A stretch of DNA of 33,808 nt, from the NCBI GenBank assembly GCA_028683435.1, contig JAQUIG010000029.1:1-33808 (forward strand), written 5' to 3'. Origin of the DNA: Desulfuromonadaceae bacterium (lineage in GTDB: Bacteria; Desulfobacterota; Desulfuromonadia; Geobacterales; Pseudopelobacteraceae). Of this stretch, positions 22,498-33,691 are shown one piece after another. The notes beneath the pieces were generated by a model. That model searched no databases. It saw only the letters and a list, made by a program, of their open reading frames with translations, and had not been told where the DNA came from. Both the position numbers and the translations under genes were made by a program. Each line of letters starts with the position of its first letter. The stretch's first letter is position 1.

Positions 22498-22504
22498 ACT
22501 CATT

Positions 22505-22585
22505 TAGTAAGTTAGAAATTATTTCTTGCGCTTTTTGGCAAAAAAATAATTTCGTTAACGCACTTATCCAGTTTATCTGGGTTAG
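22505..22585 (+). repeat. Two-hairpin dispersed element, copy A
   Basis: An 81-bp element between divIVA and slyD that recurs at 33581-33653. Order: TAGTAA, AAGTTAGA, hairpin 1 (GAAATTATTT at 22515-22524 with AAATAATTTC at 22544-22553), the 19-base core TTCGTTAACGCACTTATCC (22551-22569), hairpin 2 (CCAG 22568-22571 with CTGG 22577-22580), then GGGTTAG. The 19-base core is identical in both copies while both stems differ in sequence yet remain paired. Not assigned to a known family; an RNA element, REP-like repeat or small non-autonomous mobile element are all possible. Confidence 0.7.
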
Positions 22586-22604
22586 TTGAAACAATTTCTA
22601 TTTT

Positions 22605-33562: not shown

Positions 33563-33580
33563 GCGGAACCTCGTCAGATG

Positions 33581-33653
33581 TAGTAATAAGTTAGACGTTA
33601 TTTTCTGCAGGAAATAGCTTCGTTAACGCACTTATCCTGGTTTTCAGGGTCAG
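33581..33653 (+). repeat. Two-hairpin dispersed element, copy B
   Basis: Second copy of the element at 22505-22585. TAGTAA and AAGTTAGA lead into hairpin 1 (GACGTTATTTTC 33594-33605 with GGAAATAGCTTC 33610-33621, loop TGCA, one mismatch, two G-T pairs), the 19-base core TTCGTTAACGCACTTATCC (33619-33637), hairpin 2 (CCTG 33636-33639 with CAGG 33645-33648) and GGGTCAG. Same orientation as copy A on the plus strand, but here the flanking genes (cysS and the histidine kinase) run on the minus strand. It starts 18 bases upstream of the kinase start. Confidence 0.7.
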
Positions 33654-33691
33654 GATTAATTATATCAGTTAAAAACGAGTATGCAACCTGC

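Follow-up and report, generated by a model that had tools for sequence, protein, structure and literature searches.

Two copies of a folded repeat in one contig

The window analysed here, a 33,808-nt stretch of a Desulfuromonadaceae genome, carries two copies of a short repeat. Copy A, a 78-nt unit running from TAG to GGGT (22505..22582, + strand), is flanked by genes for DivIVA and FKBP, as assigned by Pfam, and neither a promoter nor a terminator was found when these were looked for at this copy. Copy B (33581..33650, +) has a shorter loop and stands close to the 5′ end of a gene for a histidine kinase, likewise assigned by Pfam. A pattern search of the window placed the same 19-nt core, TTCGTTAACGCACTTATCC, in both copies with no mismatch (22551-22569 in copy A and 33619-33637 in copy B, both +), bearing out the identity claimed in the initial annotation; shuffled windows gave a chance expectation of 0.01 matches. 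Copy B is shared with the closely related genome G013 (orthologous copy at L292) and is therefore the older, and copy A is absent from the same place in that genome (L369).

The left edge of copy A is a TA (22505..22506, +) inside a conserved TTAG, and a second TA (22583..22584, +) immediately follows the right end of the copy, as read from an empty-site comparison of L030 with L369 in which the relative's right flank is diverged. Hairpin 1 of copy A consists of a 5′ arm, GAAATTATTT (22515..22524, +), with the conserved base GTAAGTTA immediately 5′ of it, and a 3′ arm, AAATAATTTC (22544..22553, +), all positions being paired; hairpin 2, CCAG-TTTAT-CTGG, spans 22568..22580 (+). In copy B the arms of hairpin 1 are GACGTTATTTTC (33594..33605, +) and GGAAATAGCTTC (33610..33621, +), which by eye form 9 Watson-Crick pairs, 2 G-T pairs and 1 mismatch over 12 positions, and hairpin 2 has the stem CCTG/CAGG. 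The stems originally described thus hold for copy A and for hairpin 2, whereas hairpin 1 of copy B is less perfect than was worded; likewise the two-hairpin element is real, but the approximate extents given above are slightly wider than those first noted. Copies A and B alone supply only two clean compensatory pairs.

A repeat family in Geobacter-like and syntrophic bacteria

Searching the source genome and its relatives for the core, as initially proposed, returned further copies, also in other deltaproteobacteria. The source genome (3.17 Mb, 97 contigs) contains 26 occurrences at up to 2 mismatches, 13 per strand, and none of the reversed core used as a control. Twenty-two of the 26, copies A and B among them, were aligned and used to build a covariance model, R1, which matched copy A at 22498-22591 (E 7e-23) and copy B at 33577-33659 (E 8.9e-15). 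In the source genome R1 matched 48 places at E ≤ 0.1, 38 of which reached E ≤ 0.001, counts that include the 22 building copies by construction. At E ≤ 0.01, matches were found in 34 of 58 genomes of the order: 31 of the 37 genomes of the genus held 1 to 72 copies and the other 6 held none, and outside the genus a match was present in 3 of 21 genomes.

The exact core occurred in at least 116 stretches of GTDB contigs. Among the matches listed, the titles read Geobacter, Geobacteraceae, Desulfuromonadaceae/-ales, Pelobacter, Pelotalea, Smithella/Smithellaceae, Syntrophaceae, Syntrophobacterales, Desulfobacterales and plain Deltaproteobacteria, two read Proteobacteria only, and the sources were mostly metagenome-assembled genomes; among isolates, Pelotalea chapellei carries a copy (L096). 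IMG/VR viral contigs gave no match to the core, and plasmids and phages gave one weak AT-rich Staphylococcus match each. Rfam returned no match to the window at the gathering threshold, and copy A searched at a lax E-value gave only chance-level scores far below threshold, in agreement with the initial view that no named family matches; nor did the literature searched contain a description of this repeat family or its exact core. As far as these searches show, the family is unnamed. It is a structured repeat without an Rfam match that Geobacter-like and syntrophic bacteria share.

For alignment, R1 was run on 80 loci (88 matches) and on 97 further loci (110 matches, E ≤ 1e-4), together giving 189 distinct copies. 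The unit comprises a long imperfect hairpin 1, the 19-nt core and a short hairpin 2 at the right end, with a conserved TTAG as its left edge and the hairpin as its right edge, and its modal length is 78 nt (53 of 110 regex-matched copies). The core carries 1.3-2.0 bits per position over the 189 copies, a value inflated because many loci were retrieved via the exact core. In the source genome a young subfamily of 10 copies shows a mean identity of 95%, the other 12 aligned copies showing 66%. Internal parts have been lost from some copies at shared loci (L267, L358, L318 and L378), which fits a decaying mobile element and argues against the host strictly requiring the repeat at every locus.

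Empty sites, nested copies and an oriented target

Empty sites were sought in relatives, as the initial annotation had suggested, by joining the flanks of 13 copies of the source genome and searching 39 genomes of the genus, and by joining those of 12 copies of G013 and searching the source genome. Alignments read by eye gave an interpretable empty site at 17 of these 25 loci. At 12 of the 17, a TA stands on both sides of the copy and a single TA in the empty site (L029, L030, L033, L036, L037, L038, L040, L041, L284, L287, L295 and L302, the readings of L030 and L033 depending on diverged flanks); at two the right TA is altered (L034 and L297), and at three the empty site has CA, CG or TG instead (L290, L291 and L032, the last being TG in relatives). 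The eight unreadable loci were diverged (L031, L035, L043, L286 and L288), shared and degenerate (L285) or partly matched (L289 and L296).

Among the 85 copies of alignment A2 with letters on both sides, the left TA is retained in 80 and the right TA in 44. Either the left TA is carried by the element, or the left edge is preserved after insertion. Given this difference and the three non-TA empty sites, a simple 2-bp duplication does not explain the data, and a fixed TA duplication is weakened as the sole model; insertion after TTAG in the manner of IS200, as the sole model, is disfavoured by the empty sites. In 98 copies, picked by a regex that requires the left TA, the base at −1 is T in 96% and positions +1 to +4 of the right flank are T (66%), A (69%), G (63%) and G (66%). 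This T-rich left side and TAGG-rich right side indicate that insertion is oriented, into a target close to TTT^TAGG.

Some copies lie head to tail and share the TA (L175, L191, L379 and L402), and others are nested within the hairpin loop of another copy (L170, L407, L409, L411 and L415). Together with the empty sites, these tandem and nested copies support the original suggestion of a mobile element with folded ends. We consider it very probable that the repeat is a mobile, non-autonomous element some 78 nt long, made up of hairpin 1, the core and the right-end hairpin, which a recombinase acting in trans would copy. Trans-mobilisation of a folded strand is the likeliest mechanism, and we infer that the recombinase would read the folded + strand of the element. 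On this reading new copies enter 5′-TTT^TAGG-like sites, mostly in intergenic gaps, the left edge TTAG landing on the T-rich side of the target, and the single TA of the empty site is usually replaced by one on either side of the copy. The core would be conserved because the mobiliser needs it. Against this explanation stand the facts that no mobiliser was found and that transposition itself was not observed.

Several arrangements of copies were recorded in addition. Where the hairpin 1 loop of an ordinary copy holds a further copy (L407, L409, L411, L415 and L170), the inner one belongs to a sister subfamily whose core is close to GTGAACGTACTTATCC. Deltaproteobacteria contigs carry units composed of two or three hairpin modules each (L149:6440-6800 and L099:340-600), in which a smaller copy has apparently inserted ahead of the CTTATCC module of another. 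On a Desulfobacterales contig (L179:60-800), a direct repeat of about 475 bp holds one element copy per unit. Insertion after terminators was rejected, a strict test finding 2 of 104 copies so placed vs 1 of 240 controls; inspection by eye adds a small number of copies that come after terminator-like stems (L001, L022, L015 and L286).

Copy number does not track four transposase families

TA-duplicating DDE mobilisation has been proposed for other TA-flanked bacterial repeats, and IS630 prefers CTAG. The target contexts TTAG/CTAG, and the 12 readable loci at which TA flanks the copy on either side and the empty site has a single TA, would suit a classical MITE moved by such a transposase (IS630/Tc1-like). 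This reading is nevertheless unlikely: terminal inverted repeats are absent by eye (left GTAAGTTAG vs right-end complement RCCCYGATAAAC), both the target and the direction of insertion are asymmetric, and three readable empty sites have CA, CG or TG. The IS630 domain DDE_3, present in 18 of 39 genomes of the genus, is moreover missing both from the source genome and from 10 of the 17 that carry 20 copies or more, and its number does not correlate with copy number (rho −0.17; 37 genomes of the genus). Thirty IS630-family loci, part of all matches, contained no element ends apart from two stray CACTTATCC matches.

Processing of the hairpin ends as single-stranded DNA by a Y1 tyrosine transposase beside a fixed left tetranucleotide, as in REP or IS200/IS605 systems, agrees with several features: a hairpin at each end with no inverted repeats, a T-rich left flank, oriented insertion, the + strand asymmetry described below, and two Y1 genes in the source genome. 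REP/REPIN elements, which have RAYT (Y1) transposases as partners, resemble the repeat here in being short intergenic hairpin repeats of tens of copies or more with a conserved tag beside the hairpin (PMC6006769). The GTAG/CGTC tag at the foot of the REP hairpin, which defines the families of PMC3733652 (the main text of which is without Geobacter), is absent here, the edge being TTAG and the core ending in CTTATCC. The link to a Y1/RAYT-type transposase entertained in the initial annotation did not hold up: copy number and Y1 number are uncorrelated (Spearman −0.08, p 0.65; 37 genomes of the genus), two genomes with 30 copies each have no Y1 match (G034, 98% complete, and G027, 88% complete), and none of 31 Y1 loci, part of all Y1 matches, contained element ends within about 1.5 kb on each side. 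Lagging-strand bias of the IS200/IS605 kind was not seen either: 18 pairs of neighbouring copies within 100 kb, taken from the best-scoring copies of 7 genomes and scored by their relative orientation alone, shared a strand in 9 cases and were opposite in 9. Mobilisation by a Y1 enzyme is hence rather doubtful.

By inspection, IS110 and IS427-type transposases did not track copy number either. G034 has none of Y1, IS630, IS110 and IS427-type, and G012, with 67 copies, has one Y1. Enzyme absence in genomes with old copies would mean little; the source genome, which has two Y1 genes and two IS110-type matches, no DDE_3 and no IS427-type, has young copies. In G009 and G028, ten open reading frames lying around four clusters of copies contained no transposase or recombinase domain, and no autonomous relative of the element was seen.

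For the non-autonomous element proposed here, we would tentatively entertain a recombinase outside the four tested transposase families, one able to recognise a single strand in its folded form together with a target resembling TTT^TAGG. If so, transposition resembling that of integron attC or IS200 ends would operate in several deltaproteobacterial orders with an enzyme of its own. With an oriented target and neither inverted repeats nor a visible enzyme, the family offers a concrete route to an unrecognised mobilising protein, and the spread of copy number among genomes of the genus, 0 to 72, provides the contrast for such a search.

The two Y1 genes of the source genome (L027 on C86 and L028 on C23) each have their own unrelated palindromic repeats nearby, CCGGGGAATTCATTCCCCGG-like and GGGACAGATCTATTTGATTCT-like, which are possible REP-type units.

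Both hairpins covary

Preservation of the stems by paired changes, first proposed from two copies, extends to many changes in both hairpins over the 189 distinct copies. All 10 hairpin 1 pairs counted in alignment A3 vary on both sides; at the most-changed pair, both sides have changed with pairing preserved in 82 of 103 variant cells, and in hairpin 2 the same holds for 80 of 101. In A3, 92.8% of cells are paired, and double-change cells number 158 vs 42 in shuffles and 15-39 with slid partners, although these alignments were fitted to R1 and lean toward its structure, and related copies are non-independent. Covariation gave no support for an outer stem TTAG/YTAR closing a three-way junction, and this stem, which had been built into R1, was discarded.

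G-T mispairs exceed A-C mispairs (116 vs 66, p 2.6e-4), also after an 80% redundancy cut (58 vs 29, p 0.0025); at a 75% cut the difference is not significant (27 vs 19, p 0.30). This excess hints that the + strand folds, as RNA or as single-stranded DNA. The base of hairpin 1 (AGTAAGTTA opposite TAACGCACT) is irregular and pairable in two registers, TAAGT/ACTTA and AGT..GTTA/TAAC..ACT, which fit about equally well, and it is kept in most copies (A12/C64 in 160 of 186, A13/G63 in 163 of 187).

Quasi-palindrome correction is a known mutational process for long imperfect palindromes, and such template-switching during replication would produce paired changes without function or selection on structure. 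We regard this source of the covariation as improbable, given that the irregular base of hairpin 1 persists, that the short hairpin 2 covaries too and that G-T is in excess over A-C.

A variant in G013 (L301:875-973) has a fully complementary hairpin 1 base (AGTGCCTTACAGAAA/TTTCTGATAAGGCACT) and the usual right module.

Relation to known bacterial repeats

ERIC (127 bp) and Correia elements have a TA target and are presumably unrelated to the repeat here. Both are longer and have terminal inverted repeats. Like the present repeat they are intergenic multi-copy MITEs, Correia measuring 204 bp (PMC10969869). The Chunjie MITE of Geobacter uraniireducens is similar in its related host and in its dozens of mostly intergenic copies, but is set apart by its description as 178-235 bp long with conserved terminal inverted repeats (PMC10969869).

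BOX, RUP and SPRITE of the pneumococcus are likewise interspersed repeats of small size that fold, lie near genes and follow coding bias, BOX being modular (PMC3049150), and repeats of this kind insert into one another (PMC10969869). They differ from the present repeat in sequence and host, and BOX and RUP have terminal inverted repeats paired in duplexes, which it lacks. A non-coding RNA survey of 50 genomes, including a Geobacter, yielded 250 mobile/repeat sequence candidates (MRSC): these too have many copies per genome in inconsistent orientation and possibly act as DNA, and the example described has a covarying stem, but it forms one long stem with UYCCGG, unlike the repeat here (PMC11109978). 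The present family may be listed by number among those candidates. We file the family as a new structured MITE/REP-like repeat, which resembles a MITE or a REP and fits neither definition in full.

Genomic context and effects on neighbouring genes

Context from simple ORF calling was usable for 147 copies. Sixteen lay inside an ORF call, many of these calls being short, and the other 131, intergenic with two neighbours, were oriented ++ (56), −− (33), −+ (23) or +− (19), where ++ means that both neighbours read in the sense of the copy; when the left gene has that sense, a median of 9 nt separates its end from the copy. The fixed genes in one orientation expected of a riboswitch or host cis-RNA were not found among the 147.

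A host regulatory RNA, in the form of a 5′UTR or intercistronic element that is incidentally multicopy, would accommodate the compensatory changes, the excess of ++ over −− and several older copies just 5′ of a start codon (by eye), yet it is very improbable in view of the patchy copy number including zero, the mixed orientation, the unrelated neighbours, the decayed or missing copies at orthologous loci and the lack of an Rfam match, and the sense bias could itself arise from an oriented target resembling TTTAGG in the vicinity of stop codons and ribosome sites. A host RNA role for the repeat is possible. Since the gaps within operons gain stems and stop codons from the element, and one protein apparently gains residues in frame, it may shape both expression and protein sequence.

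In none of 110 regex-matched copies with enough flank did a frame stay open for 240 nt on either side through the copy; the regex did not pick up the case at L042. There (L042:1501-1594; C40:19034-19127 in the source genome) a copy lies antisense inside an AMP-binding/PP-binding/acyltransferase reading frame that extends beyond the available sequence, and its in-frame translation apparently adds about 26 residues just ahead of the acyltransferase match. Rickettsia proteins contain palindromic elements, which this case resembles.
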